From Bacteroidota bacterium (GTDB taxonomy: Bacteria > Bacteroidota > Bacteroidia > Bacteroidales > UBA12481), in contig JABHCC010000061.1 in the NCBI GenBank assembly GCA_018669475.1, positions 124,001 through 188,000 of the forward strand: 64,000 nt of DNA, in the 5' to 3' direction. The stretch's first letter is position 1; every line of letters begins with the position of its first letter. Below are positions 52,485 through 62,436 of this stretch, one piece after another. The translations under genes and the position numbers were made by a program. The notes under the pieces were generated by a model. That model was given only the letters and a program-made list of their open reading frames with translations, made no database searches and was not told the origin of the DNA.

Positions 52485-53144
52485 ATGGATAATAATTATA
52501 TAATGCCTATAAGAATAATAATTGCAGATGATCATCAACTATTCCGCGAAGGTGTTGTCAATCTATTATCCAACGCTCCGAATATAGATATCGTAGGACA
52601 AGCAGAAAACGGAAAAGAGGCCATTTCTCTGGCTGCAAGACTAAAGCCTGACATTATCATCATGGACATAGGGATGCCAGAGATAAGTGGGATAGATGCA
52701 ACTCGTATACTAAAAGAACAATATCCATCTGTAAAAGTGCTTGCTCTGTCGATGCATGCTGACAAGCATTATATAAAAGGAATCCTGGAGGCTGGAGGCT
52801 GGGGGTATCTATTGAAGAACTGCACTTATAATCAACTAATTGAAGGCATTACCACTGTTTATAATGGAAAAAAGTATCTGGATGGTGATACTACAGAAGT
52901 GTTAATAGAATCTTACATTAAACCTGATAAAGAAGAAATCGGTGATCCGAATTTATCTGACCGGGAAAATGAGATTCTGAAACTGATTGCAGAAGGGAAG
53001 TCCAACAGAGAAATTGCAGACACGCTATTCATCAGTATTAAGACAGTTGGAACACATAAGCAACATATTTTGGAGAAGCTAGAATTAAGCACTACAGGGG
53101 ATCTGATAAGGTACTGCCTGAAGAAAGGGATCATAACTCTCTAG
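52485..53144 (+). CDS. NarL/FixJ-type response regulator
   Basis: 219 residues. The receiver domain (8-125) has Asp15/Asp16 in IIADDHQLF, phosphorylated Asp61 in IIMDIGMP, and the conserved Lys (LLKNC). The LuxR-type helix-turn-helix (~155-215) has LSDRENEILKLIAEGKSNREIA and TVGTHKQHILEKL. The nearest gene of the matching kinase class is the REC-PAS-HisKA_3 kinase at 60925-62436, with the small secreted protein/GldM locus between. It lies 67 bp upstream of that locus and probably controls it. Confidence 0.92.
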   Translation: MDNNYIMPIRIIIADDHQLFREGVVNLLSNAPNIDIVGQAENGKEAISLAARLKPDIIIMDIGMPEISGIDATRILKEQYPSVKVLALSMHADKHYIKGILEAGGWGYLLKNCTYNQLIEGITTVYNGKKYLDGDTTEVLIESYIKPDKEEIGDPNLSDRENEILKLIAEGKSNREIADTLFISIKTVGTHKQHILEKLELSTTGDLIRYCLKKGIITL

Positions 53145-53211
53145 AGATCACATTTATCAAAAAAATGAGAACTTCCTTTTTAGTTATTAAGGAATATCGT
53201 ACTTTATACGC

Positions 53212-53781
53212 GTGAGAGGCTCAAAATACATAGTACTGTTGTTATTTTTCATTTTGTCCAGTCAGATAGGCAGAAGCCAGGGGATCAGTCAGGCTGAGAT
53301 TCCCATTACTTTGAGGATCCCTGAAGTAGCCTTAATAGATTTCGAAGGAAGTACAAGATTGATAAGTTTTGAATCTTCCCCGCAACAATCTAATCAGATT
53401 GATCAGATCGTGACTCCCTCAACAATGGATAAAACCTGGATTAATTACTCCTCAATTATAAAGGAAGGAAGGACTAATACAATTTCGGTATATATAAGTT
53501 CAGGTAAGTTGCCACCTTATACATCAATTGAATTGGATATTGGTGGTGACGTAGGAGCTGGAGCAGGATCATTAGGAAATTCTTCAGCACCGATCATCCT
53601 ATCTCAGTATCCACAAAATATTATTACCAATATTGGAAGCTGTTATACGGGGAAAGGTATTAATAAAGGTCATCAGTTATCTTACTCCTGGATTCGTCAT
53701 GACGGTCCCGACAATCATATTCTTACTGAAGATTCTTTCTCAATTGTAGTCACATTTACCATTTCTTCCACTGATAGCTAG
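53212..53781 (+). CDS. Small secreted protein, paralogue 1 (SCYTG family)
   Basis: 189 residues from GTG at 53212, with a signal peptide (IVLLLFFILSSQIGRSQ). The mature part is predicted all-beta: PITLRIPEVALIDFE, then WINYSSII..GRTNTISVYISSGKLPPYTS, then the family motif NIGSCYTGKGINKGHQLSY, ending in a strand (FSIVVTFTISS). Three more members lie at 53911, 54671 and 58763. The family was not recognised. The beta-sandwich size, single Cys, and linked chaperone and barrel genes suggest a structural subunit of a surface fibre (inference). Confidence 0.8.
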   Translation: MRGSKYIVLLLFFILSSQIGRSQGISQAEIPITLRIPEVALIDFEGSTRLISFESSPQQSNQIDQIVTPSTMDKTWINYSSIIKEGRTNTISVYISSGKLPPYTSIELDIGGDVGAGAGSLGNSSAPIILSQYPQNIITNIGSCYTGKGINKGHQLSYSWIRHDGPDNHILTEDSFSIVVTFTISSTDS

Positions 53782-53829
53782 CTCACCTTTGAGTTTGCAA
53801 TGTTCTAAGCGCCATTCAGGAAAAATTGC

Positions 53830-53872
53830 AATATCAGCCTTTTACACCCAAAAATCAGCAATTTCCTTATAG
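53830..53872 (+). promoter_or_regulatory. Two direct repeats, 21 bp apart, upstream of paralogue 2
   Basis: AATATCAGCCTTTT (from 53830) and AAAATCAGCAATTTCCTTATA (from 53851) repeat with a 21-bp period, two turns of DNA. The same layout occurs at 54557-54599 before paralogue 3. The second repeats of the two loci match at 18 of 22 positions. Probably binding sites for a regulator of the locus. Confidence 0.55.
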
Positions 53873-53910
53873 TATTCAGGTATACTGTGAGTGTATCTTT
53901 ACGCTTATCT

Positions 53911-54516
53911 ATGAACTCAAATATTAACAGTTCAATTTTGAATAGCAATAAATCGTTTCTGATGATGCTTGCTGTGATCCTTTGTTTCTCATTTACCGAA
54001 CATGTCAAGACTCAGGATTATACAGCTGGAGACATTGTAACGTTACAAGTAAATGACTTTTCCCTTATTGAATCGAATCATGCTCCTGTATCTTTAAACC
54101 TATCAGCTACAGTAGCAGGAGCAGCTGTAACAGAGGTAAGTAATTCAGATATGTTTCTTAAAATCTCATCAATTGTCCCTGGTGGTACAAACAGAGAAAT
54201 CACTGCCCGTATCGCATCCGGCGTTATTCCTACTGGTACCTACCTGAAGCTCCAGGCAGCCCCTTGTACCACAGCAAATAGTGGAGGGCGTCTGGGAGAA
54301 ACAATACCCACTCCCATTTTACTATCTGATTTAGATCAGGATTTGGTTCTTAATATTGGCAGTTGTTATACAGGTACCGGATATAATGACGGCTACCAGT
54401 TAACTTTCATCTGGGGACCGGATATACCTGAGACAAACTACCATCTGATTGAAGCCACCGAGTCTCCTACGGCCATTACAGTAGTCTTTACCATTACTGC
54501 TCATGACGGAAACTAA
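53911..54516 (+). CDS. Small secreted protein, paralogue 2 (SCYTG family)
   Basis: 201 residues from the ATG at 53911; a GTG at 53887 would only add eight residues before the signal. The signal peptide is FLMMLAVILCFSFTEHVKTQ. The family pattern follows: VTLQVNDFSLIE, FLKISSIVPGGTNREITARIASGVIPTGTYLKL, NIGSCYTGTGYNDGYQLTF, and a final strand AITVVFTITAHD. It follows the tandem 21-bp repeats and lies 130 bp after paralogue 1, so it may have its own promoter. Function unknown; see paralogue 1. Confidence 0.78.
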   Translation: MNSNINSSILNSNKSFLMMLAVILCFSFTEHVKTQDYTAGDIVTLQVNDFSLIESNHAPVSLNLSATVAGAAVTEVSNSDMFLKISSIVPGGTNREITARIASGVIPTGTYLKLQAAPCTTANSGGRLGETIPTPILLSDLDQDLVLNIGSCYTGTGYNDGYQLTFIWGPDIPETNYHLIEATESPTAITVVFTITAHDGN

Positions 54517-54556
54517 TCCTTTCTTTCCGGATATGAATTAAGAATTGTTCTGATAG

Positions 54557-54599
54557 AAAATCAGCCATTTGCCTACTAAAATCAGAAATTGTCTTATAT
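54557..54599 (+). promoter_or_regulatory. Two direct repeats, 21 bp apart, upstream of paralogue 3
   Basis: AAAATCAGCCATTTGCC (from 54557) and AAAATCAGAAATTGTCTTATA (from 54578), again exactly 21 bp apart, about 70 bp before the ATG of paralogue 3. The AAAATCAG core is identical in both. Confidence 0.6.
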
Positions 54600-54670
54600 G
54601 CCAATAAGTATTTGTTCTACACTTTTGTCTTCCTGCAAAACATTCACAATTAATAATTAACAATACGATT

Positions 54671-55234
54671 ATGAAAAAAAATGCTTTAAAAGTCTGCCTT
54701 ATCAGTATCTGTATTGGTATGACAATGAATCTAAATGCACAGGTTAATGTTGCATCTCATGGTTTGACCTTAGGATTACCGGAGGTCTCACTTCTTGCCA
54801 CTCAAAGTGCAGGAGTAAACTTAACACTTAGTTCTGCCACTACAGCTGGTGAAGCAGTATTATCAGAAATTGCTGACTCAAGTGCTTATGTTCAGTTCTC
54901 TTCAGTTATTTCTGATGGCTCCCCACGAAACCTAAGTGTAAAATATACCGGCAGCATGCCTGGAGGTACATCACTAAAGGCAAAAGCACAGGATCCAAAT
55001 GCAAACTCAGCGGGTGACTTTGGCACTCTTGTATCAACTGATGTAACTCTTAGTACAACTGACAATACATTAATTTCAGACATTGGTAGTTGCTATTCTG
55101 GCACAAGTGCAGATGATGGATATCGCATCAAGTATACCTGGGGTCTGAATGATCCAGAATCCAACTATGCCGACATCAGGGCAACTGCATCTGCTTCCAT
55201 TACTGTTGTTCTAACATTAACTGCAGCTCTCTAG
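54671..55234 (+). CDS. Small secreted protein, paralogue 3 (SCYTG family)
   Basis: 187 residues with signal peptide (LISICIGMTMNLNAQ). Family features: GLTLGLPEVSLLA, AYVQFSSVISDGSPRNLSVKY, GSMPGGTSLKAKA, DIGSCYSGTSADDGYRIKYTW, and a final SITVVLTLTAAL strand. It is followed 30 bp later by the chaperone gene, so these two and the genes beyond likely form one operon. The start has an A-rich leader and the tandem repeats upstream. Function is inferred only from context. Confidence 0.8.
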   Translation: MKKNALKVCLISICIGMTMNLNAQVNVASHGLTLGLPEVSLLATQSAGVNLTLSSATTAGEAVLSEIADSSAYVQFSSVISDGSPRNLSVKYTGSMPGGTSLKAKAQDPNANSAGDFGTLVSTDVTLSTTDNTLISDIGSCYSGTSADDGYRIKYTWGLNDPESNYADIRATASASITVVLTLTAAL

Positions 55235-55264
55235 CTCTGCAATTCATAAACATAATTATTTGTT

Positions 55265-56056
55265 ATGCATATAAAAAAGGTTGTAAATTGGGCTTTATTC
55301 CTTTTGCTACTCTCGGTTTCATGCCATGCTTCAGTAGAGGTTATCGGGAGTTTAAAGCACTTATACAAGGGGATGCCCGGTGAAGTTTATACTGGTGAAA
55401 TAAAGCTCCAGAATAGCGGTGATACAGACCAGGAAGTCAGGGTATACCAAACAAATTTATTGTACAATTTTGAGGAGTTCACGTACTATGAAGAATCATC
55501 CTCACATCCGAGATCAAATAAGGGATGGATCAATTTTAGTCCAAAAACTTTAGTTATAAAAGCAAAGGAAGTCAGGTATATTCAATATGAAATTACTATT
55601 CCTGATTCTAGCTCCATTTTAGGTACATACTGGAGTGTAATTATGGTTGAAGGAGTTAATCAAATTGATCCGAATCAGGAAGGTGAATTAAAAATTAATA
55701 CAGTTACACGGTATGCCATTCAAATGGTTACCGAGATCAATGATCCTGGTGAAGGTTCACTAAAGTTTTTGAAACCCACACTGGTCACAGAGGGAGAAAA
55801 ACTATTCCTGGCAATTGATCTGGTTAACACCGGGGAACATTACATAGCTCCTGAACTATCTATGGAGCTATTTGATGAATCCGGAGTATCAGTTAAGGTA
55901 TTGAAAGCTCGAAAAAAAGGACTCTTTCCCACAACTTCAGCAAGGTTTCGCCTTGATTTGCAGGATCTGCAAAGTGAAAAAACCTACGAGTGCCTGATAA
56001 TAGCAGCTGGGGATAATGATGATGTTTTTGGTCTTGAATACACATTATTCTTTTAA
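55265..56056 (+). CDS. PapD-like periplasmic chaperone
   Basis: 263 residues; N-terminal hydrophobic signal (ALFLLLLSVSCHA). Residues ~24-130 form an Ig-like domain (GEVYTGEIKLQNSGDTDQEV, PKTLVIKAKEVRYIQYEI, SILGTYWSVIMVEG) like the first domain of pilus-assembly chaperones; residues ~165-260 form a second sheet domain (KLFLAIDLVNTGEHYIAPEL). The second Ig-like domain has no close match to classical subunit-capping residues, so chaperone activity is inferred from layout. It lies between the small secreted proteins and the barrel protein; the 3' end overlaps the barrel gene start by about 40 bp. Confidence 0.68.
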   Translation: MHIKKVVNWALFLLLLSVSCHASVEVIGSLKHLYKGMPGEVYTGEIKLQNSGDTDQEVRVYQTNLLYNFEEFTYYEESSSHPRSNKGWINFSPKTLVIKAKEVRYIQYEITIPDSSSILGTYWSVIMVEGVNQIDPNQEGELKINTVTRYAIQMVTEINDPGEGSLKFLKPTLVTEGEKLFLAIDLVNTGEHYIAPELSMELFDESGVSVKVLKARKKGLFPTTSARFRLDLQDLQSEKTYECLIIAAGDNDDVFGLEYTLFF

Positions 56057-58744
56057 ACTGTTTCTTGCCCTGTGGATCAGTTTAATGTTATTCGGGAAAG
56101 GGTTTGGGCAGAACTCAGATTGTGCAATAGAATTAGTTAGTGATGAACCCAAACAATTATCTCCGGGAACCGCTTCTAATGTAGTGATTCGATTGATTAA
56201 CAATTCGAATACAAGCAAAGAATTTAGCCTTAAAATCCAAACTCCGACTGGATGGAATCAACTAACTGATTATTCCTCTGTTCTGTTACGAATCAATGAG
56301 AGGAAACTGAAGGTTCTAAGTTTTCATATTTATGAGTCAACCCCTGTGGGTGACTATAACATTCAGGTTCAAGCTTTTGATAAATCCAATGACTCCTTAA
56401 TTGGGGCAGTCAAGATTCCTGTTTACGTTAAGCCCCGATATGAAGTATTGATAAAAACACTACAAGCGCCAAAATATGTGGTTTCAGGCGATAGCCTCAC
56501 AGTAGGCTTTCTCATTCACAATTTGTCAAATGTAAACGCTTCAATGAGGGCAACAATAATAAATGGGAGTAAAACCTGGGTTCAGAATCTAAGTCTGGAG
56601 GCTGATTCATCAGAAATGCTCAATATCTCACTGTTGACAATAGCTAATTTGCAGCGCTCAGCTCGACAAGCAGTCAGTTTAAGTGTTAATTTTAAAGATG
56701 CACCGGAAATCAGTAGCACCAACTCTTATCTTTTCGACATTTTACCTAACAAATTATTAAACTTTGATGTCTACAGGAGAGTCCCGATAAAAGCCACAGG
56801 CTTGTTTGTATCAGATCAATCCGGAACAAAACAGAAATATGGTGCTATGTTCGACATCAGGGGATCGGCCTCGCTTTCCTCTGATAATCAGCATAACCTT
56901 GAATTTCATTTCAGAGGTCCAAACAGAAACGGCAATCCTCTATTGGGTTTAATGACAAGTATTTTGCAAGCTATAGCTCCCCAAAAACCAGAATAATTCT
57001 GGGTGATTATAATTACCGTTTGAGTGACCTGACTGAGTCATCCCGTAACGGAATAGGGGTTCTGATTGAACGAGATATTGGGAATCTTTCAACAGGGGCA
57101 TTCCTGAATTATCCCAGGTATTATCCAAAAATCCGACGTCTGGCCTCGGGCTGGTTGAGTTTCGAAAAGGAAAAAAAATACACGCTTCTGACAGGGTATC
57201 TCAATAAACAATATGAAACAGGAAAGTCAGCACATTTATTAACAGTTTCAGGCAATGCATTCCTGAAATCCTGGGGACAGATAAATGTTGAATTGGCAGC
57301 TGGTAAGCGTGACAACTTGCTCGGATATGCAATGAAAACCAGGGTATATGCTAAAAATCAATGGGTCAGAGCTTATGTCAACTACACCCTTGCAGATCAC
57401 GATTTTCCTGGTTACTTCTCAAACACCAGTTACTTTTCTAGCGGTGTTGGGACAAAAATCAAAAAAAGCATTGATTTAGCTGCCAACTATGACTTCAATC
57501 ATTCAAACATAGCCCTTGATACTCTGTATTCAAATGCCCCATTGAGCCAAAATGCTTCATTGACTGCTAATTACAGAATAAAATCAAATAATATAATAGG
57601 GCTGGCATTATATATGCGCTCACGAGAAGATCGCTCGGAGCCTAAATTATTTGACTATGCTGAGCAATCAGCCCGTCTTACAATCCAGAACAAATTCAAA
57701 TCCTTAGGAATAAGCTCATATGGTGAAATTGGAAAGGTCAAGAACTTTCTGACATTAAATGAAGGGGAGACGACTCGGGTTTTCAAAGCGAATGTGTCAG
57801 TAATATACAAATTGAATTCTATCCTCTTTATAGAAAGTTTTATTAATTACCAGGGCGGTAAAAAATACTTATTGGATGACTTTAATAGATTCTATTATGG
57901 AACTTCGGTAAATTTAAATTGGCAAAAAGGCCCGCAGATAAGACTTAGCTATCAAAACAACTATGAGATTGAAGAATACTATCGTGACCGAAGTTTATTG
58001 TCGTTAAGTGCCAGGTACAGAATACATCATAAACATGAAATAGGATTAGGAACCCACTATAACCTGGTAAAGAACTCACTTAACAAAAAAGAATTTAATG
58101 CATTTATTCGCTACACATATATCATTGATGTGCCTGTTGCCAAGAAGAATAATCTGGGAAGTCTTAAAGGCAAAGTAAATAATCTGGGTGTTCGCTCTGT
58201 TGAGGGAATAGTATTCTCTCTTAGTGGAAATATTGCCATTTGTAATAAAAGTGGTGAATTTAGTTTTCCGGCTGTTCTTCCCGGGGTCTATTATTTGTTG
58301 ATTAATTATTCGAATCTGGGAATTAATTCTATTGCAGATCAACCCGGGCCATATCAGATTATTATTGAACCGGGAATGGAGAAGAATTTCACTATTTCAA
58401 TGACCAAGTCTGCCACAATCAAAGGACGGATTGTTTTGCAATCAGATGCTAACAAGAATAATAAAGGATATGTACAAGTTAAAGAAACCTTGGGTAAACT
58501 TATTATTGAAGCAAAAAACAAAGAGGAAATATTCAGGGTGTTAACTAAAGAAAACGGAACATTCGAATTTCTGGATCTCAGACCAGGTTTCTGGAATATA
58601 AAAGTCTACAAAACCGGTATTCCTCAAGGCTATACCCTCATTACTGAACAAGTGAATATTGATCTTGCATCTGGACAAGTGCATAATCTGGATGTGCTAA
58701 TCAAGAAAAAATCAATACAAATTAAATTCCAGAAGAAACTGTAA
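56016..58744 (+). CDS. Large usher-like outer-membrane barrel protein, interrupted by a frameshift
   Basis: Two frames join to about 910 residues. Frame one (56016-56996) has a signal peptide (LWISLMLFGKGFGQ), then NEW3/Ig-like domains (LSPGTASNVVIRLINNSN, APKYVVSGDSLTVGFLIHN) and reads to TSILQ. The second frame takes up SYSSPKTRIILGDYNYRLSD, and gives a long amphipathic beta-barrel part and two carboxypeptidase-regulatory-like domains (GSLKGKVNNLGVRSVEG, ATIKGRIVL). One base lost in the TTTT at about 56962-56968 (a fifth T restores frame) explains the break. The early start overlaps the chaperone gene; a TTG at 56034 is also possible. An usher role is inferred from the linked chaperone and subunits. 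Confidence 0.72.
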
Positions 58745-58762
58745 TTCTGATAGGCAACTACA

Positions 58763-59266
58763 ATGAGGCAAAGACTTTCTAAATATTATCTCCTACTATT
58801 TGCTCTGATTTCAATCAGCCACACTATCATTGCACAAAATCGTTTATCAGTATCCCGAGGTGGTTCAATTGCCATTGATATTAATCAGCTTCTTTTAAAT
58901 AATCAGCTGGGGAATTTGGTTGCTGACAGCACTATATGGCTAAATTACACCACTTTAGTTCGTGAAGAACAACCCGATTTCTCCATAACTATAGAATTGG
59001 CTTCAGGCAGCATTCCTGAAGGAGTGGAGCTCTTAGTGGAAGCAAAGCCATACAACGGAATCAGTCAGGGAAGACATGGTCATTCAACCGGTTTGATGCC
59101 AATATCTCAAATACCCAGAGTTATAATAGATCAAATCGGCACCTCCTACACAGGCAACGGCATATATGTTGGTCATCAGCTTATCTTTTCATTCAGAGTT
59201 ACAGACTTTGGACTTATTGAGCCTGGTATTCATTCCATTTTCGTTCAATTCACTCTTTCACAATAA
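58763..59266 (+). CDS. Small secreted protein, paralogue 4 (SCYTG family, Cys replaced)
   Basis: 167 residues with signal peptide (LLLFALISISHTIIAQ). It keeps WLNYTTLVREEQPDFSITIEL, SGSIPEGVELLVEA and QIGTSYTGNGIYVGHQLIF, so the single Cys of the other three (GSCYTG) reads GTSYTG here. It lies 18 bp after the barrel gene and 4 bp before the gldM start, so it is tightly coupled. A specialised tip or cap subunit is possible but speculative. Confidence 0.8.
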   Translation: MRQRLSKYYLLLFALISISHTIIAQNRLSVSRGGSIAIDINQLLLNNQLGNLVADSTIWLNYTTLVREEQPDFSITIELASGSIPEGVELLVEAKPYNGISQGRHGHSTGLMPISQIPRVIIDQIGTSYTGNGIYVGHQLIFSFRVTDFGLIEPGIHSIFVQFTLSQ

Positions 59267-59270
59267 GCAT

Positions 59271-60878
59271 ATGGCTGGTCGCAAAGAAACTCCCAGACAA
59301 AAAATGATATCCATGATGTATTTGGTACTAACTACCTTGTTAGCTCTAAACGTTTCTAAGGAAGTTCTTGAGGCTTTTGTTGTTGTTAATGAGGGGGTGA
59401 TAAGAACCAACTTGTCATTCTCCAAAAAGATCAATGACAGCTATTCCAATTTTGAAAAAAGCTATCAAATCAATCAAACCAAAGTTCTGCCTTATTGGAT
59501 AAAAGCACAAACAGTGCAGAAAATATCCCGTGAAATGATCACATATATTGGTAATATGCGTGATGAACTAATTGCTGTTACAGAAAGAATCTCCATCGAT
59601 TCGGCCAGAGTATCTTCCCTCATGCATCTCACCAGAAAAGATGATAACAGTGTCACAACAAATTTCCTGATAGGATCATTAGAAGATGGATCGAACGGAA
59701 AAGCCAGAGAATTAAAGAATAAGATCATTGAATACCGGGAACAGCTATTAAATTTGATCGATCCGGAGTTAAGAAAAGAACTGACACTTGGTCTCATTAC
59801 TGATGGTGACTATTATAATGCCGATGGACAAAAACAATCATGGGAGATTTATCATTTCTTTGACACTATTCTTGCTGCTGATGTTACCATTCTAAATAAA
59901 CTTATCACTGAAGTATATATAGCAGAATTTGACGTGATCAATCATTTACTAAATGCCATTGGAGCTGAGGATTTCCAATACGATAAAATCGCAGCAAAAG
60001 TATTGCCGATGAGCAATTACGTTTTCCTTGGTGAACAGTATAATGCTGAAATCATCGTCGCCGCTTATGATACAACCCAGAGTCCGGAAGTACTCCTTAT
60101 GCCAGGAGTAGATTCACTCAAAGAAAGTTTGATGGATCAGGCCCATCTGATTAACAGCAATGGGGGACAAGTCAAATTTAGTCTGCCGGCCAACAGAGAG
60201 GGAATACATCGCTATGCTGGTTTAGTAAGAGTTAGAAATGCTGCAGGAACACCGAATGATTATCACTTTTCCAATAATTATACTGTTGTTTCCCCAACAC
60301 TTACCGTTTCTGCAACAAAAATGAATGTATTCTATATTGGTGTTGACAATACTGTATCCATCTCTGTTTCAGGAATACCAAAGGAGAACCTTCGTGTATC
60401 AATCTCGTGTGGCAGTCTTCACCAGGATCCTGTGAACCAGGTATGGATAGCCCAGGTTCCATCTGGATACCCTGAAACCACAGTGTCTGTATCTGGAATT
60501 ATCGATGGAAAAATACGCCGTATGGGTTCAGAGCGATTCAGAATTAAACAAATCCCGGATCCGGTTGCCAGAATTGCGAACAAAAGAGAAGGATATATAG
60601 ACAAAGAAATTATAATTGCAACTGGTTCAATAATTCCGGAAATGCCATCAGATTTTGAATTCTATTATAATTTCAGAATTAAATCTTTTCAGTTAAGCTT
60701 GCAAAGAGGATTTAAAAGTTATCAGTTTACAGCTGAAAGCGGCCAACTTACTCAGGAAATGGTTTCTCAAATCGAGCGGACTAACAGAGGACAGCAAATT
60801 GTTTTCGATCAGATTATTGCTATTGGTCCCGATAATGACGAACGATACCTATCCCCAATCATTTTGACAATCAACTAA
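59271..60878 (+). CDS. gldM: GldM-family gliding/T9SS motor-coupling protein (orphan)
   Basis: 535 residues from the ATG at 59271, 4 bp after the preceding stop; an earlier start would fall inside the previous gene. The N-terminus AGRKETPRQKMISMMYLVLT plus the membrane helix (~12-30) is typical GldM/PorM, followed by helical (~40-190) and beta-domain periplasmic parts ending PISNIL-like SPIILTIN. In T9SS, GldM spans the periplasm and passes proton-motive force from the GldL motor to outer-membrane partners. Here no gldK, gldL or gldN is adjacent; instead it ends a cluster of chaperone, barrel and small secreted proteins. That it energises this cluster is inference. Confidence 0.92.
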   Translation: MAGRKETPRQKMISMMYLVLTTLLALNVSKEVLEAFVVVNEGVIRTNLSFSKKINDSYSNFEKSYQINQTKVLPYWIKAQTVQKISREMITYIGNMRDELIAVTERISIDSARVSSLMHLTRKDDNSVTTNFLIGSLEDGSNGKARELKNKIIEYREQLLNLIDPELRKELTLGLITDGDYYNADGQKQSWEIYHFFDTILAADVTILNKLITEVYIAEFDVINHLLNAIGAEDFQYDKIAAKVLPMSNYVFLGEQYNAEIIVAAYDTTQSPEVLLMPGVDSLKESLMDQAHLINSNGGQVKFSLPANREGIHRYAGLVRVRNAAGTPNDYHFSNNYTVVSPTLTVSATKMNVFYIGVDNTVSISVSGIPKENLRVSISCGSLHQDPVNQVWIAQVPSGYPETTVSVSGIIDGKIRRMGSERFRIKQIPDPVARIANKREGYIDKEIIIATGSIIPEMPSDFEFYYNFRIKSFQLSLQRGFKSYQFTAESGQLTQEMVSQIERTNRGQQIVFDQIIAIGPDNDERYLSPIILTIN

Positions 60879-60924
60879 CATAGCAAATAACAGCTGCTCG
60901 TATCATACCGGCTTGTACGTGGCT

Positions 60925-62436
60925 TCATACCGGAACCCTTATTTGCACCTTTGTATATTCATCTGTCGCTGATTCAATAATAATAGACCCTTGCAGTGTC
61001 TCAATCCTTTCCTGAATAGAGAATAAGCCAAAACCATCTGTTGTTTCATTTCTGGTTAAAGGGTTACCATCGACTCCTTGTCCATTATCAAAAACAGACA
61101 ATATAATCTCATTATTTTCGCAAATCACTTCAACTTCAACAAGCTCACCACCAGAATGCTTGAGGACGTTTAGTAATAATTCACTGATTGTTCTGTACAA
61201 AAATATTCTCAAATCGTATTCAATTTCCGGTATTTCCCCTGTAACAAATAACTGAGACCTCATACGACTCTGTTTTTCCATCTGTTCCAGTTTCCACTTT
61301 ATGGCTGGAATTAGTCCCAATTCATACAAAATGGGTGGACACAATTCATAGGTAAGACTTCGTGAATCCTTTATAGCATCTAATATTAAACCAGTAGAGT
61401 CTTTGATGACATCGATTACCTTTTCAGGCAGATCATCTTGAAATATTGAAGATAATTTTAAATTGGCAATGGCCAAAGTAGCTCCCAAGCCGTCGTGCAA
61501 ATACTCCGAAATCCTTCTTCTTTCCTTTTCCTCAGCAATGTTCAACGCAGAATGCAAGTTTTTCAACTTGATCTGTGAACTCTTTATTTTCTCCTGACTT
61601 CGAGTCAGATCTCTTTCAATCTCTTTCCTTTTAGTAATATCATGACTAATACCACGATATCCATCAAATCTATTCCCTGAATTGATCAATGGGAATCCAC
61701 TCATTGACATCCACACCGGATGGCCTGTTTTGTGGCGGATAAGATATTCCACATCCTTGAAACTATATTGATTCTTCAAATCACGAATCAAAACCTGCTT
61801 CAATCTGTCCATTTCAGTGGATAGCTCGAATAATGAGAAATACTTACGACCAATGAGCTCACTTAAAGAATAGCCCAGTATTATTTCAGCACCACGGCTT
61901 AGATAAACGATACTTCCTGATTGATCAGTTTCCCAAAAGAATAAGCGATCATGTTCGGAAATCTGCGCATACCTATCTTCATGATCATGAAATTCTTTGG
62001 TTTTCTCCAGCAGATGTTTTGTGAGAGACTCATTCTGCTGTCGTAATATTTCCTCAGCATGACTAATTCGCAGCATTACCTTAACCAATCCAACAAACTC
62101 AAAACGATCAAAAGGCTTCGTCACAAAACCATCGGCGCCTGACTTCAGGGCTTTAACTCTGACACCAGCATCATACCCAAGAGCTGAGATCATCAATATA
62201 GGAGTACTGCCAATTTGATCATTGGCCTTCAATTCCTTACAAAATTCGAGTCCATTGTGATCAGGCAGAGCGATATCTAAGATGATAGTATCTGGTTTTT
62301 CTGCAATTGCAAGCTCCAGACCTCGGGTAGCCGTTTCAGCCATCAGTATCTTATACTCAGGTAAAGCTTTCATGAGTATGGTCTGGATTAAATCCAGGGC
62401 CGGCCTTCCATCATCTATGACCAAAATCTTTCCCAT
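60925..62436 (-). CDS. REC-PAS-HisKA_3 hybrid sensor kinase
   Basis: 503 residues. An N-terminal receiver (1-125) has phospho-acceptor Asp54 (LDIALPD) and Lys107 (VTKPFD). A coiled coil leads to a PAS domain (~155-275; YRGISHDITKRKEIE). The NarX/DegS-type dimerisation region has His314 in ISEYLHDGLG, and the ATPase domain (~390-500) has VLKHSGG, DNGQGVDG and GFGLFSIQERI. It is cytoplasmic, so it senses an internal signal or another phosphorelay. This kinase class phosphorylates NarL-type regulators, the best candidate being the one at 52485. Convergent with gldM. Confidence 0.92.
   Translation of the reverse strand: MGKILVIDDGRPALDLIQTILMKALPEYKILMAETATRGLELAIAEKPDTIILDIALPDHNGLEFCKELKANDQIGSTPILMISALGYDAGVRVKALKSGADGFVTKPFDRFEFVGLVKVMLRISHAEEILRQQNESLTKHLLEKTKEFHDHEDRYAQISEHDRLFFWETDQSGSIVYLSRGAEIILGYSLSELIGRKYFSLFELSTEMDRLKQVLIRDLKNQYSFKDVEYLIRHKTGHPVWMSMSGFPLINSGNRFDGYRGISHDITKRKEIERDLTRSQEKIKSSQIKLKNLHSALNIAEEKERRRISEYLHDGLGATLAIANLKLSSIFQDDLPEKVIDVIKDSTGLILDAIKDSRSLTYELCPPILYELGLIPAIKWKLEQMEKQSRMRSQLFVTGEIPEIEYDLRIFLYRTISELLLNVLKHSGGELVEVEVICENNEIILSVFDNGQGVDGNPLTRNETTDGFGLFSIQERIETLQGSIIIESATDEYTKVQIRVPV

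Follow-up and report, generated by a model that had tools for sequence, protein, structure and literature searches.

What is a GldM protein doing in an operon which contains none of GldK, GldL and GldN? To our knowledge, GldLM has been treated as a motor exclusive to the type IX secretion system (T9SS) and gliding. The question is raised by a locus at positions 52485-62436 of a 64,000-nucleotide stretch (the window) of a metagenome-assembled genome (MAG) of the Bacteroidales, representing positions 124,001 to 188,000 of contig JABHCC010000061.1 (GenBank assembly GCA_018669475.1). An earlier interpretation made without database searches (the sequence-only reading) had described here genes for small secreted proteins, a chaperone, an outer-membrane barrel protein and a GldM, and had noted that gldK, gldL and gldN are missing. 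This absence was confirmed from the open reading frames (ORFs) of the locus. On the + strand the genes are arranged as S1, S2, S3, chaperone, barrel, S4 and gldM, and the product of the last gene is named GldM2. The locus looks like an undescribed fibre-building machine that took over a copy of the proton-driven motor which otherwise serves secretion and gliding in Bacteroidota. An even chance is given to the reading that it is a chaperone-usher-like surface-fibre system with an outer-membrane platform driven by a recruited GldL-GldM motor, in which the coupling of motor and platform is the part that we infer.

GldM2 belongs to a separate clade of GldM proteins

GldM2 (59271..60878, + strand) possesses a transmembrane (TM) helix followed by the domains D1-D4. 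Its ATG is situated 4 bp past the stop codon of S4. It matched the TIGR03517 profile with an E value of 4e-94, above the cut-off, and all four Pfam domains of the family (GldM_1st, GldM_2nd, GldM_3rd and GldM_4th) were also detected above their cut-offs. When 59 GldMs were placed in a tree, the 13 full-length copies from loci of this kind (module GldMs) formed one clade with 100/100 support. This clade neighbours the T9SS GldMs of a single group within the Bacteroidales and is positioned far from the T9SS GldM of the window's own genome. The dedicated GldM suggested by the sequence-only reading thus branches apart from T9SS GldM. The TM motif PRQKMI..MYL..LLALNVS is retained in the module GldMs. 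Compared with the sister T9SS GldMs, D4 is the most conserved of the four domains within the module clade and the most divergent between the two clades, with a gap of 0.157 against 0.085-0.106 for the other domains (permutation p 5.5e-4, columns taken as independent). D4 of PorM binds PorKN (PMC8986121), and a shift in this very domain fits a changed partner.

A GldL gene directly follows GldM in three of the loci (L094, L106 and L115). In G404 (Paludibacter), the barrel gene ends one contig while a GldM fragment and a GldL of the same type end another. Aligned with the T9SS GldL of the genome, these module GldLs retain the glutamate of the second TM helix (TMH2), equivalent to E49.

Other second GldMs in the order (L036-L046) were considered as further modules and rejected, as they are GldL_N/GldM_1st fusions or lie in other contexts. 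In the fusions (L039:3876-6442, L043:9129-11691, L041:8748-10377, also in L040 and L037), the GldL_N TM hairpin and GldM_1st are joined in one chain. These membrane proteins often occur as tandem pairs adjoining a PadR regulator, and they appear to be relatives of the GldL-GldM motor made of a single chain. At L046:9408-11123 (G023:C350), a GldM paralogue whose N-terminus is a zinc ribbon is located among other zinc-ribbon proteins, away from gldKLN.

The gene block is conserved and its core is wider than GldM

The chaperone and then a barrel profile were used to search relatives, and a larger profile was run against 85,000 species genomes. The recovered loci were annotated by profile. The order S (1-4 copies)-chaperone-barrel-S4-GldM was found in 14 distinct genomes, wherever the contig was long enough. 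In a barrel tree with 53 members, those from loci with GldM formed a single clade (SH-aLRT 99), and the sub-groups of this clade match those of the GldM tree. An ordered block recurring in 14 genomes, together with the common clade pattern of barrel and GldM, makes the arrangement more than chance. The synteny anticipated by the sequence-only reading therefore exists in other genomes: the small proteins co-occur with chaperone, barrel and gldM, and this gldM is neither the only copy of its genome nor grouped with ordinary T9SS GldM.

GldM does not adjoin the barrel in 37 of the 51 classifiable barrel rows of the tree. Among cultured species, Flavobacterium oncorhynchi, F. plurextorum, Elizabethkingia occulta and Marinifilum breve carry the S-chaperone-barrel core without GldM, as do many MAGs. 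Of 395 sampled genomes from the phylum, 16 (~4%) have the barrel, and the chaperone gene adjoined it in all 14 loci inspected in this sample. In the GldM-less loci, the place of GldM is usually taken by another small secreted protein. Since the GldM-bearing barrels and the module GldMs each form a single clade, GldM was added once and then inherited with the barrel; the core predates the motor and is more widespread. As most relatives keep the core without GldM, the motor is unnecessary for export as such, and export by the core does not need GldM in general.

Other features of the neighbourhood also vary. Small secreted proteins of the X91 family follow S4 in GldM-less loci (L118:13169-13702, L129:13095-13583 and equivalents). 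At L034:1423-3042 and L109:3820-7042, the module is immediately preceded by two secreted proteins of DUF4402 type and by a second, distant chaperone-like gene. A related pathway may use such DUF4402 proteins as its subunits. No relatives were found on viral contigs.

The module occurs with and without a detected T9SS

The genome of the window carries gldK, gldL, gldM and gldN together on contig C151, a complete set that is separate from the module. It also has SprA and at least 150 T9SS sorting tails. It contains one GldL gene and two GldM genes. GldM2 may be viewed as an alternative subunit of the T9SS or gliding motor which lies beside an unrelated surface operon by chance. Its full membership of the GldM family agrees with this, as does the T9SS GldL being the only GldL in most of the genomes. 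The strict linkage of module GldM to one barrel clade (14 loci) and the shift of D4 argue against it, and so do two genomes. The only GldM and the only GldL in G405 (Bacteroidetes bacterium GWF2_40_14, 3.4 Mb) are both of module type, and this genome gave no match to SprA, GldN or GldK and no sorting tail of T9SS. In G403 (a Prolixibacteraceae MAG, 1.9 Mb), GldM and GldL are again those of the module only; no SprA, GldN, T9SS GldM or sorting tails were detected, and two GldK-like matches stayed below the family cut-off. In the other gldM-type genomes counted (G000, G362, G399, G401 and G404), sorting tails are scattered and number from 39 to at least 150, so that the loss of all of them through incompleteness is unlikely in G403 and G405. 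An alternative T9SS subunit is thus considered highly improbable.

The chaperone is related to WxLIP proteins

The chaperone-like protein (55265..56056, + strand) is predicted to be periplasmic and is composed of two Ig domains. A profile of 30 homologues searched against PDB retrieved EfmWxLIP1 (E 2.9e-7), and no PapD-family structure appeared at E values up to 10. Among the same 30 proteins, Pfam identified WxLIP_PGBD in 11 and WxLIP_HBD in 6, and no PapD match was obtained. Comparison with eight chaperones of E. coli K-12 gave 2.3% by hhalign. Kinship to PapD was rejected on these three grounds, and the 'PapD-like chaperone' of the sequence-only reading has to be replaced by a WxLIP-related protein. 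The C-terminal membrane helix of WxLIP is absent, and the signal peptide is the only hydrophobic stretch. In WxL clusters, AlphaFold2 predicts that a hairpin strand of WxLIP completes the WxL sandwich, a chaperone-like act (PMC10599100).

The S proteins are predicted to have a pilin-like fold

Three members of the S family precede the chaperone on the + strand: S1 (53212..53781), S2 (53887..54516) and S3 (54671..55234). They are small secreted beta proteins with a predicted similarity to pilins. Their alignment supports a single family; S1 has an orthologue in every gldM-type locus with a complete 5' end. S4 (58763..59266, + strand), the fourth and shorter member, is always situated between barrel and GldM in these loci. 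The signal peptides of the S proteins end at AQ in the alignment, with no lipobox cysteine at the predicted cleavage site. S3 was used for modelling, and its AlphaFold2 model (predicted local distance difference test, pLDDT, 85) is a beta sandwich in which the mature N-terminal extension is unpaired. In Foldseek, the best rows for this model were CfaB and other chaperone-usher pilins, suggesting a weak resemblance of S to such pilins. Assignment of S to WxL, DUF4402 or FimA was tried by profile searches and gave no match. No WxL Pfam match was found in 32 S proteins at E <= 1, no FimA/Mfa Pfam match was obtained, and no known family was recovered by profile.

A system without fibres was also considered. 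The S proteins would then act as monomers in a surface coat or in adhesion and would correspond, in Gram-negative bacteria, to WxL proteins, with the WxLIP-like protein as carrier and the barrel as anchor. The relation of the chaperone to WxLIP, the placement of S outside the known families and the several S paralogues per locus are in line with such a system. It is quite unlikely in view of the lack of WxL domains among the S proteins, the predicted fold with pilins as its nearest neighbours and a free N-terminal extension, and the loss of the WxLIP membrane helix from the chaperone.

The barrel protein is predicted to resemble ushers in layout

The usher-like outer-membrane barrel protein is encoded at 56016..58744 (+ strand). 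Its AlphaFold2 model (pLDDT 84) is composed of two N-terminal Ig domains, a barrel of ~26 strands and two C-terminal beta domains which are transthyretin-like. The nine best Foldseek rows against PDB were all FimD or PapC (E 2e-15 to 7e-11). No usher Pfam match was found, and hhalign to ushers gave 2.9%; sequence homology between the barrel and ushers was thus not found by this method. Comparison of the N-terminal Ig pair with the chaperone by hhalign (91.5%, E 9e-7) shows the two to be related. In two relatives (L092:9158-12211 and L093:7970-11011), the barrel has an N-terminal extension of ~120 residues which appears LysM-like by eye, and a C-terminal tail in L097:8460-11480 appears SPOR-like by eye. 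Both were considered as hints of periplasmic barrel termini and were not confirmed by Pfam.

The outer-membrane barrel with Ig domains had been predicted in the sequence-only reading and is retained, though not as one intact ORF. In the window, the gene is split by a one-base deletion at 56943-56950 into ORFs 56016-56996 and 57020-58744, and alignments with homologues change frame across this site. Nearly all relatives have the gene as one uninterrupted ORF, and this deletion is confined to the present assembly. The deletion makes a decaying copy of the locus conceivable. All the other genes are open and conserved, the barrel frame is otherwise intact on both sides, and the deletion falls within a G/T homopolymer run, where assembly errors are common in a MAG. 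Decay of the window locus is therefore hardly credible, although a biological deletion and an assembly slip are not separable in a MAG.

A GldL-GldM motor may actuate the platform

In the proposed mechanism, S1-S4 would be exported through their signal peptides as pilin-like subunits with an incomplete sandwich and a free N-terminal extension, as the predicted fold suggests. The WxLIP-related two-Ig protein would keep these subunits in the periplasm and would probably donate a strand to them in the manner that AlphaFold2 predicts for WxLIP with WxL. The barrel protein, with its termini in the periplasm, may take over the subunits and export them as a fibre, and S4 may serve as basal or anchoring subunit; both roles are suggested by layout and fold. 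In the GldM-bearing branch only, GldM2 would dock in a GldL pentamer, made of its own GldL or else of the T9SS GldL. The tip of D4 would contact the periplasmic domains of the barrel or S4 and not the GldKN track, and proton-driven motion could thereby be passed to the platform. Donor-strand chaperoning, fibre formation, the D4-platform contact and the motion are all steps that we infer. Of the chaperone/usher-like fibre proposed in the sequence-only reading, the pilin-like subunits and the usher-like barrel layout are upheld by the predicted structures and the PapD-type chaperone is lost.

The motor could act in more than one way. The sequence-only reading had linked GldM to export or assembly through proton-motive force, and proton-driven strokes of GldM2 might open the barrel or push subunits out. 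GldM2 is operonic and co-inherited with the barrel and S4, and the large barrel shows no obvious plug domain in the model. On the other side, classical chaperone-usher export needs no energy source, and most relatives keep the S-chaperone-barrel-S4 core without GldM. Powered export is considered unlikely. The dedicated GldM of the sequence-only reading stands, while the need for a motor in export is weakened by the 37 of 51 barrels without GldM, so that the remaining roles are to actuate the platform or fibre or to boost assembly in this branch. As the GldM-less relatives keep the whole core, the motor would rather move, turn or gate the platform or fibre than serve export itself, and actuation is preferred here over powered assembly.

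Several observations weigh against a motor-driven, chaperone-usher-like fibre system. TM-scores of the barrel protein to ushers are only ~0.3, and with the barrel alone, MtrB (Z 20.8) scored above FimD (17.0) in VIA, where ordinary porins reached ~16; the usher likeness therefore rests mainly on domain order. The pilin rows of the S model are weak in Foldseek (E >= 3.8e-3), and in VIA many pilins scored at Z 5.6-7.3, all hits being weak at <= 7.5. Neither the chaperone to PapD nor the barrel to ushers shows sequence homology detectable by hhalign. The T9SS GldL is the only GldL in most gldM-type genomes, so that GldM2 there would have to share it, and a dedicated GldL-GldM motor is shown for one sub-branch only. 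The MAGs G403 and G405, in which T9SS was not detected, may be incomplete. Given its frameshift, the barrel copy of the window may be dead or mis-assembled. The gldM-bearing genomes found are all uncultured and the evidence is computational. A stricter form of the proposal is a new class of powered surface appendage, a fibre or adhesin platform with a WxLIP-type chaperone and a non-PapC barrel, which a GldL-GldM rotary motor drives directly without T9SS or a GldKN track. This form is considered somewhat less likely than not.

Two-component genes flank the block

The first gene of the module encodes a NarL/LuxR-type response regulator (52485..53144, + strand; Pfam Response_reg E 6e-27, GerE E 5e-18). 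In most gldM-type genomes a NarL-type regulator precedes the block, often with its kinase; it occupies the same position in L035, L092, L093, L094, L102-L104, L110 and L115. A gene convergent to the module (60925..62436, - strand) encodes a hybrid sensor kinase with the Pfam architecture REC-PAS-HisKA_3-HATPase. Homologues of this kinase are situated directly upstream of the NarL-type regulator in L035, L092, L093, L102, L103 and L110, and it is probably the partner of the regulator at 52485. This two-component pair may control the operon. The gene calls of the sequence-only reading for the regulator, the four S proteins, the closely following GldM and the convergent kinase were all reproduced, and the kinase was refined to a hybrid with REC and PAS domains.

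Relation to known systems and significance

With the GldLM motor of T9SS and gliding (GldKLMN; PorKLMN), the module shares a GldM with TM helix and four periplasmic domains, and some of its loci also have a GldL in which the TMH2 glutamate is kept. Unlike it, the module locus is without GldK, GldN and SprA, has its own GldM clade with a diverged D4, and is also present in two MAGs without a detected T9SS. The classical pili of the chaperone-usher type (Fim, Pap, CFA/I, Csu) have the same subunit-chaperone-barrel-subunit order, a two-Ig chaperone, periplasmic N- and C-terminal barrel domains and a subunit fold to which the predicted S fold is weakly similar. They differ in that the chaperone and barrel of the module have no sequence relation to the PapD and usher families, its barrel begins with a double Ig domain resembling the chaperone and has ~26 strands and no plug in the model, and a proton motor is added. 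The WxL/WxLIP clusters of Bacillota (PMC10599100) resemble the module in the WxLIP (DUF916-DUF3324) relation, which extends over both domains, and in the adjoining small partner proteins. In contrast, the module resides in a diderm host, its WxLIP-like protein lacks the membrane helix, no WxL domain was detected in S, and an outer-membrane barrel and GldM are present instead. Type V (FimA/Mfa) pili of Bacteroidia are built of surface fibre subunits in the same phylum, as the module fibre would be, whereas S shows neither a FimA/Mfa Pfam match nor a lipobox cysteine and the module encodes a chaperone and a barrel. By homology, the system is outside the chaperone-usher family, having no PapD feature, and outside the T9SS motor complex, from which it is set apart by linkage and clade. 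In its function it plausibly resembles a chaperone-usher system equipped with a motor of T9SS type. In a literature search that covered few subscription papers, no paper was found that treats GldM outside T9SS and gliding or describes a chaperone-usher-like system with GldM in Bacteroidota.

If the proposed reading is true, the GldLM motor would be modular and able to drive another outer-membrane partner. The module would then offer a simpler system for asking what the tip of GldM touches and what its motion does. The GldM-less core represents an undescribed chaperone-barrel-subunit pathway that is spread over Bacteroidota, with cultured Flavobacterium and Marinifilum among its carriers, and it ties the Gram-positive WxLIP family to outer-membrane export.

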